From Lobosporangium transversale (lineage: Eukaryota; Mortierellomycota; Mortierellomycetes; Mortierellales; Mortierellaceae): a DNA stretch of 64,000 nt. Location: the NCBI RefSeq assembly GCF_002105155.1, contig NW_019029003.1, forward strand, positions 434,001-498,000, in the 5' to 3' direction. This document shows, one piece after another, positions 24,301-33,290 of the stretch (positions within the stretch are counted from its first letter, which is position 1; each line of letters opens with the position of its first letter). The position numbers and the translations under genes were made by a program. The notes below the pieces were generated by a model. That model searched no databases and was not told the DNA's origin. It saw nothing but the letters and a program-made list of their open reading frames with translations.

Positions 24301-25142
24301 CCTGGATCTGATACCAACAGACATTTTGAGAAAGAACCCAAAAGACTGGCTTCATAACGTCCATTGGATTATACTCATGTGTCCACTCCACAATATTTTC
24401 AGCTTTGACATAGACTAACTCTGACTTCGAGGGTTCCAGGACTTCCTGACTGCTAATTCCTAACATCCACGTCCCAAGTATCCAGTTTCAATTGTAGATT
24501 TGTCCAAAGCAAATTATAGCACATGGGGTTAGATAATGTGTTGGTCCATAATAACATCGTATAGGCCAGTATTTCAAGTGAGTGTGCATTGCAAATTACC
24601 CTGGGATAGGATTGTCTCTTCAATAGGAACCCAACCTCTCACTTGGAAAGGCCCATTTGTTTTGAGCTTGTCAAGCTCTTGGGGAATTGTGCCGGTTGCA
24701 TGGTCTAAAATCTGGACATTGTATAGCCTGCGATGTGGTAAATCATCCGAATTACTGATTCGTTTCTTGATAGGTTTGTAGACTATTGTATCTTTGACGG
24801 GTGTATCTTTGTCATCCTTGACAGGGTCACTAATGTTCAATCCTATTGATTCCCATTGCTCTGTTGAATCCATGTGCATGACCAGGTCTTGATGAAAGTT
24901 CGCCGCCAATCCAGTCTCTACCTTCCTGACCTGGCTGCTACTCATTAGTGCTCCCTGTTTGTACCAGGCTTCCCTGAAAGGAATATAAATAAAAAATAAT
25001 ATTTGGCCTGGGCCGCAAAAAGGATGTACACCATTGTATAGCCCGTTCCATTTGGTCGCGATCCCTTATATTTTTTGAATACTTTTAAATGTATTGGCAG
25101 CCAATTGACTCGCTTGTTATTGCAAGTGGTGTGACTGGTCAT
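21338..25142 (-). CDS. RFTS-domain protein (DNMT1-RFD-like, Raf2-like candidate)
   Basis: Multi-exon gene starting MTSHTTCNNKRVNWLP. The segment HRRLYNVQILDHATGTIPQE ... GPFQVRGWVPIEE, followed in later exons by IVEWTHEYNP ... PVFWVLSQNVCWYQIQ, matches the replication-foci targeting (RFTS) pattern: R-L-x-x-F/V-x-I-x-D, a G-W/V-x-P strand, then W-S-E-Y and an aromatic WY-x-L block. RFTS domains occur in DNMT1 and in S. pombe Raf2 of the CLRC heterochromatin complex, so a chromatin role is inferred. After a helical middle (MLTLYRERLIDLCS) the C-terminal half is disordered: an 18-base minisatellite coding for Thr/Ser repeats, then basic and acidic-Ser stretches. The intron 22524-22660 places the repeat in frame (VAQA-TMPDQL). 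The last exon gives ARWEEQRVKETKRRSGGNNG and stops at 21338. No methyltransferase domain is present. Confidence 0.6.
22278..22492. repeat. 18-base minisatellite inside coding sequence
   Basis: About twelve imperfect 18-base units (consensus near ggtaacggatgtagggct on plus) code on the minus strand for hexapeptides of the form T-S/P-I/V-T/A-x-x within the RFTS protein. The unit length is a multiple of three, so copy-number change keeps the frame. Confidence 0.8.
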
Positions 25143-25564
25143 TAAAATTAATTTCAGTTTATTTTGTAGTCATAGGCGGGTCCGCCTCACCTAGAAACTA
25201 CCGAGTATAAAAGCCAAAGAAACTTCCTTCTTAATAAAGTCTTCAGTTTTCCCCATATGTCTTATTCTTCACCTGCAGTTCATCTTGCCATTTATCTTTT
25301 TCCCCTTTTCACAACAAGCATTTGTCTTCCGGTAACTCAGTTTGTGAGCTCACCTATAAAGCTCCCATCTTTTGACATTCTATGGTGCTGTTTGTAGTCA
25401 AGGTTATTTGACTCTATTTTCTCTTGTTAATCTTGTTGACACCCTTTGTCCTGCCTTTTCCTGATTGTGTCTATCTTTCTGTCCCTTAAGCAAAGATATT
25501 TTTTACAACAATGCCACCAAACCAATTTATTATGATTAAGATATGTGGGGTCTATATGTTGTCT
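25143..25564. other. Spacer between RFTS gene and the Fanzor relic's 3' blocks
   Basis: About 420 bases without a supported gene. A plus-strand TATAAAAG lies near 25204, but no gene follows it. The short ORF antisense at 25427-25627 overlaps the decayed block B and is not credible. Confidence 0.45.
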
Positions 25565-25703
25565 AAATAGTCCTCCCCATAAAAAAACACCATCTAGACC
25601 AAGCATAGAAATAAAGAGATTAGTCAAGAAAGCACTGTCAAGCTAATACTTGCAACTTTTTCAAGACGAAGGCCTTTCCCGACCTAGTCATGTTTGTAGT
25701 AGC
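25565..25703 (-). other. 3' conserved blocks A and B of the decayed Fanzor copy
   Basis: On the minus strand, block A (25703-25637) reads from ctactacaaac through aaaggccttcgtctt to aagtattagcttga. It matches the block after the intact gene (31217-31281) at about 58 of 65 positions by eye. An intron-like spacer then runs from gcaagt to ctag. Block B follows (25593-25565, atggtgttttttta...gaggactat), resembling 31357-31391. Block A matches far better than the protein-coding part of the relic. Confidence 0.7.
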
Positions 25704-25925
25704 TCATGAAAAATTTTAGACAGACAAATAGTAACAAGGGAGCAGAAGTGAGAATAGGATGTGGGTTCACACATCACATCCATGGGGCATTTATCCAAAT
25801 TTGTATCAAAATAAAACTGCAAGTTTGTCTCGGGCACCACACCATGGGCCATAGAGCTGTTAGTATGTCTGTATTATAAATTTTCATGTAGCACGTGTAC
25901 TGTGAAATATGCAACTGATCATATC

Positions 25926-26690
25926 CTATTGTTGTTGCCGGCTTGGTGTCTTTCCTCCCAACCTATCAGTGAGCATTGGTGCAACGCATATAAGGCACAC
26001 AGGCTGTTGACGAGCCTACTTCTCACCTTCACCGTTTGACGCAGGTCAGGGTTGTGACGGTCTAGCGAAGAAAACGTAAGGGCATTAACAATACCAGGAT
26101 CGCATTAGACGGTAGTTGTGGTATTTGCAAATGAGCATCGCCCTGGCTCATGGAATATGAGTCCAACGTTTTCAAGAAGTTTGGGGCCCCTCTTCCAGCT
26201 TATGTTTGCGTAGTCTTCATCTATCAGGCCTTCACCGGCTGCCTTTAAAACACGCCGTGTTAAGGAATCCTTGAGAAAGTTTCAATTCCTGGCTGAGATC
26301 TTCTTCATCTACGTCAGACTGCTGCTGTCTCTTCGTCTGGACTGTGTCATAGGCAAGTGGATTCAGAACAAGGCCATTGGCAATATCGTTCCTTTGAGTT
26401 TGAACCGAGTTATACCTTTGTCTTGTGCCTGTAGGGGTACCTTGTCTTGATAGCCATGAAACATGCGATCTCCTTCAATGTCACAAAGAGAGCCTGTATC
26501 TAGACCTCTTTTGTTCCCTGTACACATTCAAACACTGCAGCCTTGGAAGGATTGTCGAGAGGATGTCAGTTAGGACGTGTTCAGACAGATACACATACCG
26601 AGGGGGGACGTAAGGAAGTCTGTTTTTTTTTATTTCTTGTTGATTATCATGGCGAAGGCTTGATTTGGTAAATGTTGATGATTGGAGAAG
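25926..26690 (-). pseudogene. Decayed Fanzor-type nuclease copy, lacking FEN1 part and RuvC-II/III
   Basis: Reading the minus strand across at least three frame breaks gives, in order: SSLRHDNQQEIKKNRLP...VYLSEHVLTDIL (26680-26557), GYQDKVPLQAQDKG, NGLVLNPLAYDTVQTKRQ (26382-26320), ISWKRGPKLLENV (26215-26160), CDPGIVNALTFSSLD (26103-26055) and a terminal SRQQQ-stop (stop at 25926-25928). The same order occurs in the intact gene: AKK...CLTEACLLDIL, GYKDVGLQSDDG, NGLTLTLLAYDTSKQKRG, INWKQRSRLLENV, GIDPGERYSMTIAKLD, SRQQQ-stop. The glutamate/zinc-finger/RuvC-III segment is missing and no FEN1 part is seen. Stops and shifts make it non-functional. It faces the intact gene head to head. Confidence 0.8.
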
Positions 26691-27028
26691 AGCTGTAAAC
26701 AATACTCGAAATCCAAAAAGTTAAAACTTGTCGCTGAGAAACTTATTGTTTCGAGTTGTTCCAAATTCATCAGCCTTTTGTTTCGTTCTCTTTCATACAC
26801 CTATAAATACGTCCTGCCTCCTTCTCTTTTTCCCTCTCTCTCTCTCTCTCATTTTACAACGACATTGCTTTCGCGCTCTCACCCGTACTCTTACACCCTC
26901 ATCCCCTCACAGATCATAACTTTTTGCTTTCTTAAAGGTAAACTATCTCTACTCTAACAACTTCAGCTTCAATCTTTAGCCGCTTAAACCAACATTGCTT
27001 GCACTGTTTTACACTATACTTTCTCTAG
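26691..27028 (+). promoter_or_regulatory. Promoter/5' leader of the FEN1-Fanzor gene
   Basis: A TATA-like ctataaatac lies at 26801-26810, about 220 bases before the ATG, followed by a C/T-rich initiator-like tract with (TC)n (about 26820-26850). The region begins where homology of the antisense relic stops. Confidence 0.5.
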
Positions 27029-30000
27029 ATGGGTATTAAAGGACTCTATTCATACCTTTCAAGGAGAGACCTGCCACCAAAGGAGATTGATGTACATGAG
27101 CTTGCTGCTGAACCCCATTCATCTTTTGAGCTGGATCTGCTTGGCACTTTCCACAGCGATATACATAATATCATCCTAAGGAGATTCAGCTGGCAGAGTT
27201 CTTTCACTGCCTGCGGCCATGCTATGGCTAGTATCATTCGAAAGATCTTTGGTCCTCTTGCCACAGTGACGATACACATTGATGGGCCTCGCTGCGAAGA
27301 AAAAACGCGTGCCTATAGGGACCGAGATGCTAAGCGTACAGCAGCGGATGCAAAACTCGATACGCTCATAGCCAACATGGAAACCAAGTCCAATGAAGGC
27401 AAATGGGAATCTCGAAGCCATATGATTGCCATTAAAAAGAATCTTCGACAGCTCTTCACATTCAGTCATAACGAGAAGAGGGAGCTCGCGGCGCCATTCG
27501 GTCGATACAATAACTTTGTGATTTGCCATTGTAGAAATGAGGCTGATGTGTGTATTGCCGCCAAATGTACACCAACCAGTATCGCTGTGTCTGGGGACTC
27601 TGACCTTCTCATCTATCCTTCTATAAAAAGAGTTCTTCGTCCAATCCCTCGTCGCCATCACATGTTTGCACTCTATGAGAAACAAGAGGTCCTGCAAGCC
27701 CTTGGGTTTTCAAGGAACAGTCAACTCCTGGTCTATGGCATTATATCCGATAACGATTACACCCCAAATATCCCAACCTTTGGTCTTGCTACAAATGCTG
27801 AGATTATCTCCGCGCTCACTGACACTGATGCCGAAAAGTTGACGGTATCATATGTTCGTGAGGTCCATGCCCGTAGCCGTCGAACTCCTGCAGAAGGCCA
27901 GTTTGACCATTCAATTAATGTTTTCTTTGGTAGAATCCAAACCCAGGCTTCACAGCAACCAACCGCTGAAAGATTCCTTCATTACCATGATAGAATGAGG
28001 ACTGCGATATCTGCTAGGTACCAGAATAAAAATAATCAACCTCAACCCAGGTAAGCTCCTTCAAATGAACATTTTCCAAAGCATATACAAAAAAAAAAAA
28101 AAAAAAAAAAAAAAAGTCATCTAACCCTTGACATTGTTGTTCCTAATTAGATTCTATATCCCTAAACGCGCAAAGCCGGATGCTATCGGCCTGTTTTCCC
28201 TACCCAGAAAAAGGAACTTTCCCATAAGAAATATGACCTGACCAACTGCAAACAACACGACCGTCCCGTCAGCTCCAGCCATCAAAGAAAGTCCCCCAAA
28301 AAAAAGGAAAAGGGAAAAAAAGAGGATGAGAAAGAAGAGGAGGTTAAGGAGGAAAAGAAGAAAAAAAAGAATAACAAAGGGAAGGCCAAGTATATCAGAA
28401 AGACTGATAAGACCAGGAAAGTGAAGGAGGCTACTGCCGAGGACCGACGGTTGAAGAGGGCCCACCCCACTGTTGCATTAACTCTGGGCACGTTAAAGAC
28501 ATGTGTAGTTGCCAAGCTGGACTCTACTTCCGATCCCAATCTCAATCCCGAGCAACTTGCTGCAACAATTCAAGGGCTCATTCAATCATTTATTAAAATG
28601 TTGAATGAGGCACGGATTCGAGCTTTCTGGGCCTGCGCCTTGTGGATCGATAACCTGCTTACCACTGGGCCATCCAATCCAGCTGATCTCCCACAACTCC
28701 TAGATGAAGTTCTTGATAGCAGGGACTTTATTTACGGCCTTGCTGCGTTGTTGTATCACGGAGTGATGAGTCCATTATCTAGGTATAGCAGGGAAGTGAA
28801 GAAAAAAGGCGAAGGGAACGTAGCCAAGCCGTCCCAGCTCAAAGCATACGAAAACTTCTATGCAAAGACAGGGCTTGGTCCTTTAAACCAGATCTATCCC
28901 GATTTGGTGATCAGCAGGTCGTCTCGGATGGTCATGGTCCCTGTTCAAGCAGCGCTAAGGTCTCACTATCGGAATGCGCAGGTAAATATAATATTATAAT
29001 ATTTTGAGGTTATCTTATAATATGTTTATAGAAATGTTCCTAATCATTTCTTCAATATAATGTCTAGTTTGACATAGATATTCCAGACGATGGAAGAAGT
29101 TCCATCCAATTCTTTTTTGAGCAAAATGCAACTGCCAAAAAATATCTGGATTTCCCTACGTCTGCTTTCTCGCCTCGGTCTCTTTGCCTAACGGAAGCCT
29201 GTCTCCTGGATATATTATGGTCTAACCCAACAGTTCGAGAGGAAATAGCCCAATTGTTGGAACTAAACATGAGTACCAAGGGGGCTGCAGAGGACAAGAT
29301 CCTTAACCACAAGGGGATATTGTTGCAGGAGCTGTTTTCCTTGAAAGGATACAAGGACGTTGGACTGCAATCTGATGATGGCCCTAGAAGGAAACTACGG
29401 ACATCGTTCTTTACAAACGGCCTTACCCTAACACTTCTTGCCTATGACACATCGAAGCAAAAAAGAGGTAGAGGTTCGCAAGCTGCCCAACCTTCGGATA
29501 CTCAAAGATCTCAAGCAGTCCAGGCTTCTTCAAGTGCTCAGCAGGGATCCTCGTCTTCAGGCCATGGTGCAGGTGATGGTGGTGATGATGGAGACGACGA
29601 CGGAAATGAAGATGACGATATCTTGCTGGGCATCAGCGATATTGACTTGCTGGAAGTTGATGAACCATTCTTAGATGGCGAAGAGGAAGAAGAAGCAGCT
29701 GAAGAAGGTACATCGAGCACAAATCAGCTGTTCCCGGTGAGTCCCAGTCCCCGGCGTGAGATCAACTGGAAGCAGAGATCCCGTCTCCTCGAGAATGTAG
29801 AAGTTAAATATGACACCCAGGCAGCATGCCCTCCCCCCGAAAGTACCATTATCATCGGGATCGATCCAGGCGAGAGGTACTCGATGACAATTGCAAAGTT
29901 GGATCCAAGGAAACCTAACGAACGTGAGATCCTCCGGATTTCTAGAGCGTACCTTTACAAACCATCCAAGAAGTTTCAGGGCGAGCTAGAGAGGCGAAAG

Positions 30001-31208
30001 CTTAGAAGAGGAATTACAGAGATTGAAAGCAATATTCCGTCATTCTCAAGGCCTACTTTAACACAGTATTTCGCTTATATGAGCTTGCCGCTAAATCAAG
30101 CTCAATCAAGTACTGGAGGTAGTTTCTCTGGTAGTGGGGTTGGGGCCAGTAGTAGCAGTGGATCTGGGACCAGTGACGACAATAGGGAGACTATATATAG
30201 GGCGCTTGTCGATTTCTATAATGACGGGTGGTTTGTTCGGAATAGCTGGGATATTAGAAAAGCACAGAACGGATGCGTTGATTATGTGATCAAGGCAATT
30301 CTGAAGCTTGCGGGCGGAAGCAATGGAAGAAGAAGAGATGCCAATACGAATGCGGTGATCTGTATTGGACTAGGATCATTCAAGACAAACCGAGGACAAG
30401 TATCGAAGCATGGGATATTGATGAAGAAGCTTGTTGAAAAGGTAAAAAAAAAAAAAAAAAAAAAAATTCCCTTGATCAATGACATTTAATTTTTGAGTCT
30501 TTTTTTAACGAGTATTAAATCTGGCTCGAACAGGCAAAATCTCTAGACTACCCCATTGTAGGTTGTCATGAATACTACACATCTGCCAAGTGTCCACGGC
30601 CTCACTGTGACAGTATATTGGAGAATGTTCCTTTTCGATCCAAGTACTGTCGAAATTGTAAAGCATACATTGATCGAGATGCTGTTGGTGCTGAGAACAT
30701 CGCAAGGGTCTGTGAGTCGCAGATAAGAGAGCAAAAACGACCTGCAAAATATATGCCGCCGGACGGAGGAACTCAAGGCCAAGCTTCTAGCGGTAGTGGC
30801 GGCGGTGGAGGTAGTGGTGGCAGTGGTGGTGGTAGTAGCAGATCCACAAAAAGGAAATTTTCAGATGAAGGAGGAGGAGGAGTAGAGGGATCAAGACCAC
30901 CGAAAGGGCTTTTGTTGAGTCCAGGGGTAGGAGGTAGTGGTAGTGGTAGTGGTAGTGGCAGAACCACAAAAAGAAAATTCTCGGATGATGGAGGAGGGGA
31001 AGTTGAGGGTTCGAGACCATCGAAGGAACCTTTGTTAAGCCCGGGGGAAGGAGGAGGAGGAGAAGGAGGTAGTGGTGGAAGTGGCAGTGGAGGAATCAGA
31101 AAAAGGAAATTTTCAGATGAAGGAGGAGGAGTAGAGGGATCAAGACCACCGAAAGGATCTTTGCTGGGTCCAGGAGGAGGGGGAGAGACAAGCCGGCAAC
31201 AACAGTAG
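27029..31208 (+). CDS. FEN1/XPG-like nuclease fused to Fanzor (TnpB-like) RuvC nuclease
   Basis: Four exons (27029-28050, 28273-28981, 29068-30441, 30534-31208) join in frame to about 1,259 residues. Residues 1-340 are a whole FEN1/XPG-type core: MGIKGL start, D36, HIDG (D85), NEADVC (E171/D173), SGDSDLL (D190/D192) and SDNDY with a helix-turn-helix-like follow-on (D243). A Lys-rich linker and a helical region (about 395-577) come next. Then the Fanzor part: NWKQRSRLLENV, RuvC-I GIDPGERYS (D843), HEYYTSAKC with the relocated Fanzor Glu (E1048), zinc finger CPRPHC/CRNC, and RuvC-III DRDAVGAENIA (D1084). The tail has three Gly/Ser-rich repeats with KRKFSD. Fanzors are RNA-guided DNA endonucleases of eukaryotic mobile elements. 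Joining of the halves depends on the intron 28051-28272; two separate genes is the alternative. Confidence 0.75.
30837..31175 (+). repeat. Triplicated Gly/Ser-KRKFSD repeat in the Fanzor C-terminus
   Basis: Three coding repeats begin at about 30843, 30963 and 31092. Each has a GGSGSG-type linker, then K-R-K-F-S-D, a Gly run, EGSRPxK and LLSPG-like ends. They differ by in-frame changes. The antisense Pro-rich ORF here is a shadow. Confidence 0.8.
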
Positions 31209-31216
31209 GACACAAT

Positions 31217-31400
31217 CTACTACAAACATGACTAGGTCCAGAAAGGCCTTCGTCTTAAAAAAATTGTAAGTATTGGCTCGATATACTTTTTTTTCTTGGT
31301 TAATTTATTTATTTATTTATTTCTGTGTTCTAATACATTTCTTCTTTTTACAATAGATGGAATGTCTCGTTTTTTAATGGGACGGACTATATGCAAAGCT
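31217..31400 (+). other. Conserved 3' block A, intron-like spacer and block B of the Fanzor locus
   Basis: Block A (31217-31281) starts 9 bases after the Fanzor stop and is shared with the antisense relic (about 58/65 by eye). At 31266 it contains a gtaagt donor. A T-rich, TTTA-repeated spacer ends in ttacaatag at 31356, followed by block B (31357-31391). Spliced at these sites, a short frame MTRSRKAFVLKKL-WNVSFFNGTDYMQ opens and runs to about 31490. Its place next to the nuclease stop is where TnpB/Fanzor guide-RNA scaffolds lie. Whether it is RNA, a peptide or a spliced 3' UTR is undecided. Confidence 0.6.
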
Positions 31401-33290
31401 ATCCTCTGATAACAGTATCTTCTGAAAATAACTGGACAACCACAGCCAGTTCATTTGTTATTCAGATGTATCTAAGCTATACTATTTAATCGGGGGCGAC
31501 TTTGGATTTCGTCTCCATAAAAGAATTATGAAAGTCACCCCACCCACCAGGCTGTAGATCGCATTCGAGATGATCAAATTCATTGTGTGGAGACTACTGT
31601 TTTTTTAGTGTATCAATCCAAGCAGGCGGCAGCTACACAAGATTTCCATCGGAAGCTTGGTACTCTCTCCATCAACCTTCGATGTGTCTCTTTTTGATGC
31701 TAGAAAATAGTGAGGGTCTAAATATGATCACCATACACATTTACAGTTGGTTAGTACCATAACGTATAGTCAAACACCCAGCCAATCTATTTACACAGCA
31801 GAAAACAGGATATTACCCCATTCATTCTTCTCTTGAGATTTTCGTCTGATGACTCTAGAAAAATGAAAGAGCGTGTTAATGGCAAGGATATTCACATTGT
31901 GCTCAAATCAAGGAATATATTGGTGTAAGAAGATGTAAACGCCAGTCAGTGGAGAGCTAGAGCATGTATGCGAAATAGGCTCAAGCAGAAAAAATAACAA
32001 ATTCATCAATGTAAACAAGTCAAATAAAAAATAAAAAATAAAAAATAAAAAATAAAAAATGTATCTTTAAGCAAAAAGGCTCGCGAGAGGACAAAAAAGC
32101 AACAGTGAAAGTCGGGGCATGGGCATAGACCATGGGTCCCTATACCATCCTAGGGCCAGATCCCAAAGGGTTTTAAAAGATTTAGCAAACTTAAGAAATT
32201 CAACCAACGTTCTGAATTCTCGCCACGGGCCAAATGCTTGAGCTTTGGAACGAGATGAAAGAGGAACAATCTTTCGAATACAGACGGATCCAATGGGTGT
32301 CGGTAAGAGCTTCTCTCCTATTTTTTGACAGCAAGAGCATATGCTAAAGATGGCATACCCTCTATATCGCAGATGCAGGAGAGTTGGTTCGGTCTGATGA
32401 AGATACTGAGTTTAAGTTGATTCAACGTTTCCTGGTGCTCGATGGCGAAATTTTGATTTCCGACGATTAGAAAAGGCGTGCTAATGCCCATCTTAGGTCC
32501 CGGGGCTCAGCCGCTAAAGCAATGTTTGAGAAAATCCTCATGCAGAGGTCACAAGGGCGTAGGGGCCTTACGGTTGTCGATGGACATGGCAGGCTTTTCC
32601 AACCCGCTCCCCCAATGCCAAAGAAATATACATATCTAAGCTATCCCTGGGAGGACTTGCCATTTGCTCTGATGACAAATCTGGATCTTGTTTGATCCTC
32701 ACGGCAAACCCGATGTATTTTTTATGCTCTTTCGATTTTACTGCGACATAGAAAAACAGAGAAAAATAAAGTTATTGTACAAATTTGTACAATAAACGGT
32801 TGGATAGTATATTTGTCGTCATCCTTGCATGGTCCGTGCGTGACATAGTCTGTGCAAGAGGTTCTTTAAAAAAAACTCATAAAATGAGCTAATTCCATGG
32901 TTTATTGATGATTCTTTTTTGACTAATGAATGTTTGGCAGATTAATATCGACTCAGTGGAGTTCTTTCACGCAGGCTGGCTCGTTGTAGGGCGGAGTAAA
33001 CTTCACTGCTCTGAAATCAAGAATGTGGAAAATATTCAATGGACTTAAGACTTTGTATTATCCCAGTTATTATCTCTGTTTTCTTTTTCTTAGTGGTGCT
33101 TCTTGGCGCTATGGGTTATCCTGACCCTACCGAAATGTTAAGGAAGGCATCTTAATACTGTATATGTTGTTGAAGGGCACCTCAATCTCTGAGATGAATG
33201 TATTTTGCCCAAGAGGTCATTTCATGACGTTATTACAGACTTTTTTGACAGGGAAACGCTTATTTTAGATTAAAAATTAACCTCATGTGT
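31401..33290. other. Gene-poor island sequence with unidentified spliced-looking fragment
   Basis: No confident gene. An (ATAAAAA)n run lies at about 32022-32060. A possible old coding fragment sits at 32240-32690: MLELWNEMKEEQSFEYRR, an intron-like gtaaga...cgcag, then EFKLIQRFLVLDGEILISDD and, after breaks, GRLFQPAPPMPKKYTYLSYP. It matches no family I know. A perfect palindrome lies at 32772-32795. Confidence 0.4.
32772..32795. repeat. Perfect 24-base palindrome
   Basis: ttattgtacaaa is followed at once by its exact reverse complement tttgtacaataa. It has no loop and lies outside any gene. Confidence 0.9.

Follow-up and report, generated by a model that had tools for sequence, protein, structure and literature searches.

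A predicted FEN1-type nuclease joined to a Fanzor1 on a Sailor-type transposon of Lobosporangium transversale

Those Fanzor proteins that have been studied so far cut DNA under the guidance of an RNA that stems from the transposon end (PMC10432273). For SpuFz1, a CA is conserved upstream of the left repeat of its element, the measured target-adjacent motif (TAM) is CATA and 5' overhangs are left at the break (PMC10432273). Fanzor1 proteins are also found in Tc/mariner elements such as PGv-1 and PUl-4, and elements on mariner ends that carry only a Fanzor have been described (Bao and Jurka 2013, PMC3627910). Here we describe a 64,000-nucleotide stretch of the genome of the soil fungus Lobosporangium transversale (contig NW_019029003.1, positions 434,001 to 498,000; hereafter the window), in which a gene that appears to encode a Fanzor1 fused to a 5' nuclease of the FEN1/EXO1/XPG family resides on what we read as a single 6.35-kb copy of a non-autonomous transposon of the Sailor type (IS630-Tc1-mariner, DD82E). 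Our confidence in this assignment, taken jointly with the gene and the mechanism set out below, is evenly balanced. Fanzor1 is an already known kind of protein; the new part would be its conserved nuclease partner.

The gene is modelled as four exons (Table 1). Counts of splicing and integrity refer to 15 copies of the window family (family A), the window copy included. In this set, exon 1 ends with CAG followed by the donor GTAAGC, and the intron spanning positions 28051-28150 ends with TTAG. Splicing at these conserved sites yields an in-frame junction in 13 of the 15 copies, as for example in ...QPQPRFYIPKRAKPNRYRPVFPTQKKELSPKKYDLTNCKQHDRP..., with variants in some of them. Copy L023 is interrupted earlier by an insertion in exon 1, and the window copy carries a one-base deletion near 28181 that is lacking in the other 14 copies and puts it out of frame after the conserved splice; its product would end in a stop after 370 residues. 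The window copy is thus probably impaired, while other copies read through the junction. An earlier note on this DNA had tacitly treated the window copy as intact and had spliced it over 28050-28273; neither assumption survived the comparison of copies. With the acceptor at 28272, as with two others, the window copy retains an open frame, so that a cryptic-splice product of this copy is possible. As the conserved splice site it was rejected, since 13 other copies and two copies of a second family fit the upstream acceptor.

This second family of the same genome (family B) is about 31% identical to the window family in exon 1, and its copies L024 and L026 form the junction FYIAKGSHRNQFRPIFSDKASILNGRTVDISNCRQHDRP with a canonical donor of their own at the intron position seen in family A. 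The junction segments can be aligned between family A (FYIPKRAKPNRYRPVF), family B (FYIAKGSHRNQFRPIF), Podila (FYVAPGSHKNQYRPIF) and Mortierella sp. AD011 (LYVPKRAKPNRYRPVF). The other genera also supply joined proteins: P0003 (Podila verticillata; 1260 aa, 100% query coverage, 29% identity) and P0002 (Benniella sp.; 1160 aa, 94% query coverage, 34% identity; it stops before the zinc finger) are each a single predicted protein. P0004 (Benniella) lacks the middle, its FEN part being joined to the RuvC part, and P0013 (Mortierella sp. AD011) runs from the last stretch of the FEN part through the junction LYVPKRAKPNRYRPVF into the beginning of the Fanzor. In the genome, seven places show matches to P0003 that set in at residue 346, right at the junction. 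A profile search at full length gave no further fused proteins, and one with the Fanzor part returned ten proteins in all, several of them partial. The in-frame junctions in 13 of 15 copies, the junction shared with family B and the fused or junction-spanning proteins of other genera together support the earlier note's central claim that a FEN1-type module and a Fanzor form one protein; in the relatives from Podila, Benniella and Mortierella the two halves are linked. That these are instead two separate adjoining genes, the fusion being an artefact of the gene model, we consider highly improbable. The conserved splice of the window copy does run into a stop, as this explanation would have it, but the exon 2 frame offers no Met before MLNEARIRAFW, deep in the conserved Fanzor part, the coding segment at the junction is conserved across families and genera, and the family-B copy L025 has an uninterrupted 512-aa frame across the junction, though through a deletion and not through splicing.

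Genome-wide, 69 matches to the TNB family and 104 matches to the FEN-type query were found. Forty of the 69 TNB matches have a same-strand FEN-type match upstream (at 0.76-2.99 kb; 8-kb limit), and three have any FEN-type match within 8 kb downstream.

By its fold and active-site set, the N-terminal half is a FEN1/EXO1/XPG-family 5' nuclease, with nuclease activity predicted. The seven acidic residues that the earlier note had listed (D36, D85, E171, D173, D190, D192 and D243) are invariant in alignments of five, three and four sequences; in a six-row alignment that includes a 111-aa fragment of L028, from a broken third family, only D36 and D192 of the seven stay invariant. K92 and R99 are invariant in five sequences, and their spacing from D85 equals that of FEN1 K93/R100 from D86; their equivalence to Lys93 and Arg100 of FEN1, the roles of which are described in PMC5490271, is by spacing only. 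Structure comparison with Foldseek recovered the FEN fold for the modelled half, with the DNA enzymes EXO1, FEN1, GEN1 and XPG as the closest folds. In fold and active-site set the domain thus resembles the superfamily; it differs in its low identity to the listed solved members (11-16%), its location on a transposon and its fusion to a Fanzor. The 5' nuclease superfamily includes RNA enzymes as well, and Foldseek placed XRN1 at ranks 44 and 48 of its matches. The domain might accordingly act on RNA or on the guide complex, trimming transcripts during guide RNA maturation and leaving DNA ends to the host. We regard this as unlikely, because the nearest folds are DNA enzymes and the full acidic set is accompanied by the FEN-type Lys/Arg; moreover, the portions of the Fanzor literature examined do not mention such a domain.

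The C-terminal half is a Fanzor1 by its motifs, with RNA-guided cleavage putative. As in SpuFz1 and its relatives, DPG at RuvC-I, an alternative Glu, a zinc finger and RD are present in the proteins of the window, P0003 and P0005, in line with the motifs named in the earlier note. The Glu lies six residues ahead of the zinc finger (EYYTSAKC in the window and P0005, EFWTSAKC in P0003). We took DPG at RuvC-I as a mark of Fanzor1 from PMC10711439 and the pattern D-X(125,275)-[TS][TS]XX-C4 zinc finger-X(5,50)-RD from PMC3627910; the latter is found under loosened limits (first knuckle CX2-4C, gap before RD 3-50). In all three tested proteins the first zinc knuckle is CX4C, unlike that of Fanzor1, and the strict CxxC-twice pattern failed for this reason; this pattern is a search filter of PMC10711439 and was not used here as a definition of Fanzor1. 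Among profiles, PF07282 is matched by exon 4 above its cut-off (29.7 versus 26.3 bits), and NCBIfam guided_TnpB matches P0003 and P0005 at about 1e-5 (25 bits, versus a family cut-off of 100). With about 1160-1260 aa and an N-terminal FEN-type nuclease, the fusion departs from the 633-aa SPu-1-1p. A single-sequence query with the exon 3 protein found no close relatives in viral contigs. Sequence matches of P0002 and P0005 in the PDB were mostly low-complexity noise and were set aside.

Exon 1 is full length in 14 of the 15 copies, and 13 of those 14 keep the nine tested catalytic residues, one having Gly at 36. Only in copy L012 does the open frame continue from exon 1 to beyond the RuvC-III residue. 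Six of the 14 broken copies have their first stop at 401-432, inside the basic linker; some of the breaks lie in homopolymers, so that part of them may be sequencing errors. The pN/pS values, calculated without a neutral simulation control, came to 0.50, 0.55 and 0.43 for exons 1, 2 and 3, respectively, and six pairs of family-B exon 1 gave a dN/dS of 0.33-0.81; the low pN/pS in both halves suggests that both are under constraint. Since exon 1 keeps its length, the frame of 14 of the 15 copies breaks off before the Fanzor core is complete and the window copy would yield 370 residues via the conserved splice, the FEN-type protein alone might be the working product and the Fanzor half decaying baggage. 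This reading is improbable in our view: pN/pS of the Fanzor exons is about as low as that of exon 1, the RuvC motifs persist when counted in any frame (14 of 15 copies retain DPG, and all 15 retain the Glu and RD motifs), and fused relatives exist in other genera.

The carrier, left out of the earlier note, appears to be a non-autonomous Sailor-type transposon. The window element extends from 25041 to 31387 and is flanked by TATA repeats on both sides. Copies of the family have common ends, namely G-TATA-GCCCGTTCCATT on the left and AATGGGACGGAC-TATA on the right; among aligned copy ends, TATA flanks 10 of 12 on the left and 11 of 13 on the right. Related ends led to L034, an element encoding a 607-aa transposase (NCBIfam IS630, E 2e-11, 43.9 bits against a family cut-off of 100; the Pfam DDE_3 match is also below cut-off) and measuring 6979 bp between TATA repeats, with four mismatches in the first 1362 inverted positions. 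These measures agree with the published Sailor of L. transversale (607 aa, 6979 bp, 1362-bp repeats; PMC8533490), to which L034 was matched by measures and not by sequence. Its transposase has a D-E spacing of 83, which is common in Sailor, and target-site duplications of Sailor are mostly TATA (PMC8533490). The left end of the Fanzor element is 91% identical to the L034 ends over 45-46 nt. Thus the element shares left-end sequence and TATA flanks with Sailor, but has short inverted repeats instead of 1362 bp and no visible transposase gene: none was recognised among the open reading frames (ORFs) of at least 80 aa listed for 25000-33000, so that it would be a non-autonomous Sailor member at most. 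Given its Sailor-type ends and the lack of a transposase of its own, the FEN-type domain could instead serve transposition, for example at 5' flaps or gaps of Sailor excision or insertion sites, with the Fanzor half passive or separate. We judge this distinctly unlikely, as no FEN-like ORF was seen by eye among the six Sailor L034 ORFs of at least 100 aa (of which only the transposase was domain-scanned) and family B carries the fusion on different ends.

The left end of the element offers a candidate target motif. Among exact ends taken genome-wide by end sequence, whether or not part of a whole element, a G precedes TATA at 17 of 19 Fanzor-type left ends (TATAGCCCGTTCCATT), at 3 of 22 Fanzor-type right ends and at 22 of 77 Sailor-type ends (TATAGCCCGTTTCATT). 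The counts behind the enrichment at Fanzor-type left ends over right and Sailor-type ends (Fisher p 1.1e-6 and 1.5e-6) come from copies that share ancestry and so lack independence, which makes the p values too small. By analogy with the CA upstream of the left repeat of SpuFz1 and its CATA motif, (A)GTATA is a candidate TAM; the left G could also be an extra base of the element. A search for empty sites by flanks, bearing on the origin of this G, returned only the flanks themselves, ends of a neighbouring repeat and family-B left ends.

Several observations weigh against the reading that we prefer, in addition to the shared ancestry of the counted ends and the missing neutral control for pN/pS. 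The first stop falls at residues 36-945 in 14 of the 15 copies, and in L027, a copy of family B, the conserved acceptor gives no in-frame join. No upstream same-strand FEN-type match accompanies 29 of the 69 TNB matches (28 have none, one has an opposite-strand match); some of the 28 are derivatives of the window family without exon 1, such as L033, and the query detects only FEN domains similar to that of the window copy. Of the profile searches proposed in the earlier note, the Fanzor side succeeded with PF07282, while on the FEN side Pfam XPG_I stayed below its curated cut-off (13.9 versus 24.9 bits), marking a divergent family member by sequence, and the NCBIfam fen_arch match to P0003 was weak (E 0.034). 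The structure model of exon 3 is poor (pTM 0.34); its best three PDB matches are SpuFz structures, at E 0.013-0.084 and none below 0.001. It can thus do no more than suggest the WED/REC/RuvC fold of Fanzor1, and we dropped this structure as stand-alone evidence. The right end folds as RNA no better than shuffled sequences (z -0.43), and Rfam gave no omega RNA match. TATA is replaced in copies L016 (TGTA/TACA) and L020 (TACA/TATC).

Table 1. Positions of gene and element features in the window
Feature	Position	Strand	Basis or remark
G directly left of left TATA	25036..25036	+	Candidate part of TAM; G in 12/12 aligned left ends
Left TATA, probable target-site duplication	25037..25040	.	TATA in 10/12 left ends
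Left terminal inverted repeat GCCCGTTCCATT	25041..25052	+	Shared ends; 91% identity to Sailor L034 ends over 45-46 nt
Inverted left-arm remnant	26232..26474	-	Reading resembles family-B Fanzor (L024/L025 ORFs), by-eye comparison
Exon 1: FEN1/EXO1/XPG-family 5' nuclease domain (predicted)	27029..28050	+	
Intron 1: donor GTAAGC, acceptor TTAG	28051..28150	+	Conserved among copies; same position in family-B L024, L026
Exon 2: junction segment (most other copies: FYIPKRAKPNRYRPVF), basic linker, Fanzor-half start	28151..28981	+	
Intron 2	28982..29067	+	Copy comparison
Exon 3: Fanzor middle part, RuvC-I GIDPG	29068..30441	+	
Intron 3	30442..30533	+	Copy comparison
Exon 4: alternative RuvC Glu, C4 zinc finger (TNB), RuvC-III Asp, low-complexity tail	30534..31208	+	Pfam PF07282
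3' non-coding right end, expected omega RNA place (putative)	31209..31387	+	Kept in derivative L035
Right terminal inverted repeat, GTCCGTCCCATT on minus strand	31376..31387	-	Shared ends among copies
Right TATA	31388..31391	.	TATA in 11/13 right ends

The family has left further traces in the genome. L035 (C67:246480-248690) is a 2.07-kb derivative that keeps the left arm and the final few hundred bases of the right end and resembles the ghost copies of SpuFz1. The 9-kb element L033 (C33:627700-636900) shares its ends with the family, lacks exon 1 and has a damaged Fanzor; its ORFs include a Crinkler N-terminal domain (Pfam E 3.8e-16) and an RHSP-like P-loop below cut-off, an apparent case of cargo swapping. 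In the left arm of the window element, 25590-26474 contains two inverted stretches, one resembling the Fanzor gene of family B and one of 94 nt that matches the right end; this is probably a nested remnant of old date. At the right flank of L020 (L051), a Fanzor-A copy immediately abuts the left end of a copy of family B, an insertion into or beside a related element. At the left flank of L019 (L048, L049), a Fanzor-A copy adjoins the precise end of another repeat, which is also present elsewhere with no such copy beside it. The flanks of L016 (TGTA on the left, TACA on the right) are reverse complements of each other and form no direct repeat.

The architecture of the gene, its conservation, the carrier, the resident transposase whose element has matching ends, and the G on one side only can be read from the sequences themselves. 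From these we propose a two-nuclease protein, composed of a FEN1/EXO1/XPG-type 5' nuclease, a conserved segment, a basic linker and a Fanzor1, that would work for its Sailor-type element in five steps; as a whole, the proposal could with equal ease prove right or wrong. Extrapolating from the families concerned, the resident Sailor transposase would move the element in trans into TATA sites, a non-coding right-end RNA, its guide taken from the right flank, would load the Fanzor half, and the complex would cut unoccupied guide-matching sites beside (G)TATA, such as the donor site after excision. As a hypothesis, the attached 5' nuclease would then resect or trim the 5'-ended strand at the break to give 3' single strands, and homologous repair from an element-bearing copy would restore or spread the element. 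A tethered 5' nuclease could remove the 5'-ended strand and could therefore favour such repair. The fusion may thus be a cut-and-resect enzyme by which every guided cut in an empty site flanked by (A)GTATA would lead on to copying of the element by homologous repair, a tentative idea that we would sooner doubt than assert. Among the OMEGA-type effectors known to us, such a fusion would be the first to have a DNA-end-processing nuclease built into it covalently.

The locus shares several traits with described systems. Like Spu-1 with its ghost copies, it is a multicopy element with terminal inverted repeats and gene-less derivatives, and like that of SpuFz1 its left end has a conserved base directly upstream; the omega RNA is putative here. 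As in PGv-1 and PUl-4, a Fanzor is cargo on ends matching a mariner-type transposon, and PGv-1 likewise encodes a second endonuclease, beside its Fanzor (PMC3627910); there, in contrast, it is a separate GIY-YIG protein, whereas here the FEN-type domain and the Fanzor form one protein on a carrier of the Sailor type. Literature searches, the wider ones by titles and abstract starts and with subscription journals and most preprints outside their scope, found no Fanzor-FEN1/XPG fusion and nothing on a TnpB with a PIN domain in fungi. The words XPG or flap are absent from the searched text of Fanzor papers, and the only co-mention of Fanzor with FEN1, in the text available to the search, is irrelevant, Fanzor occurring in the title of a reference.

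We know of no settled answer as to the role that Fanzors play for their own elements. A Fanzor fused to a 5' nuclease directs attention to the repair step that follows the cut, an idea that can be addressed by mutating either half singly. If active, the protein would offer genome editing a natural template for linking a guided cut with resection of the ends.

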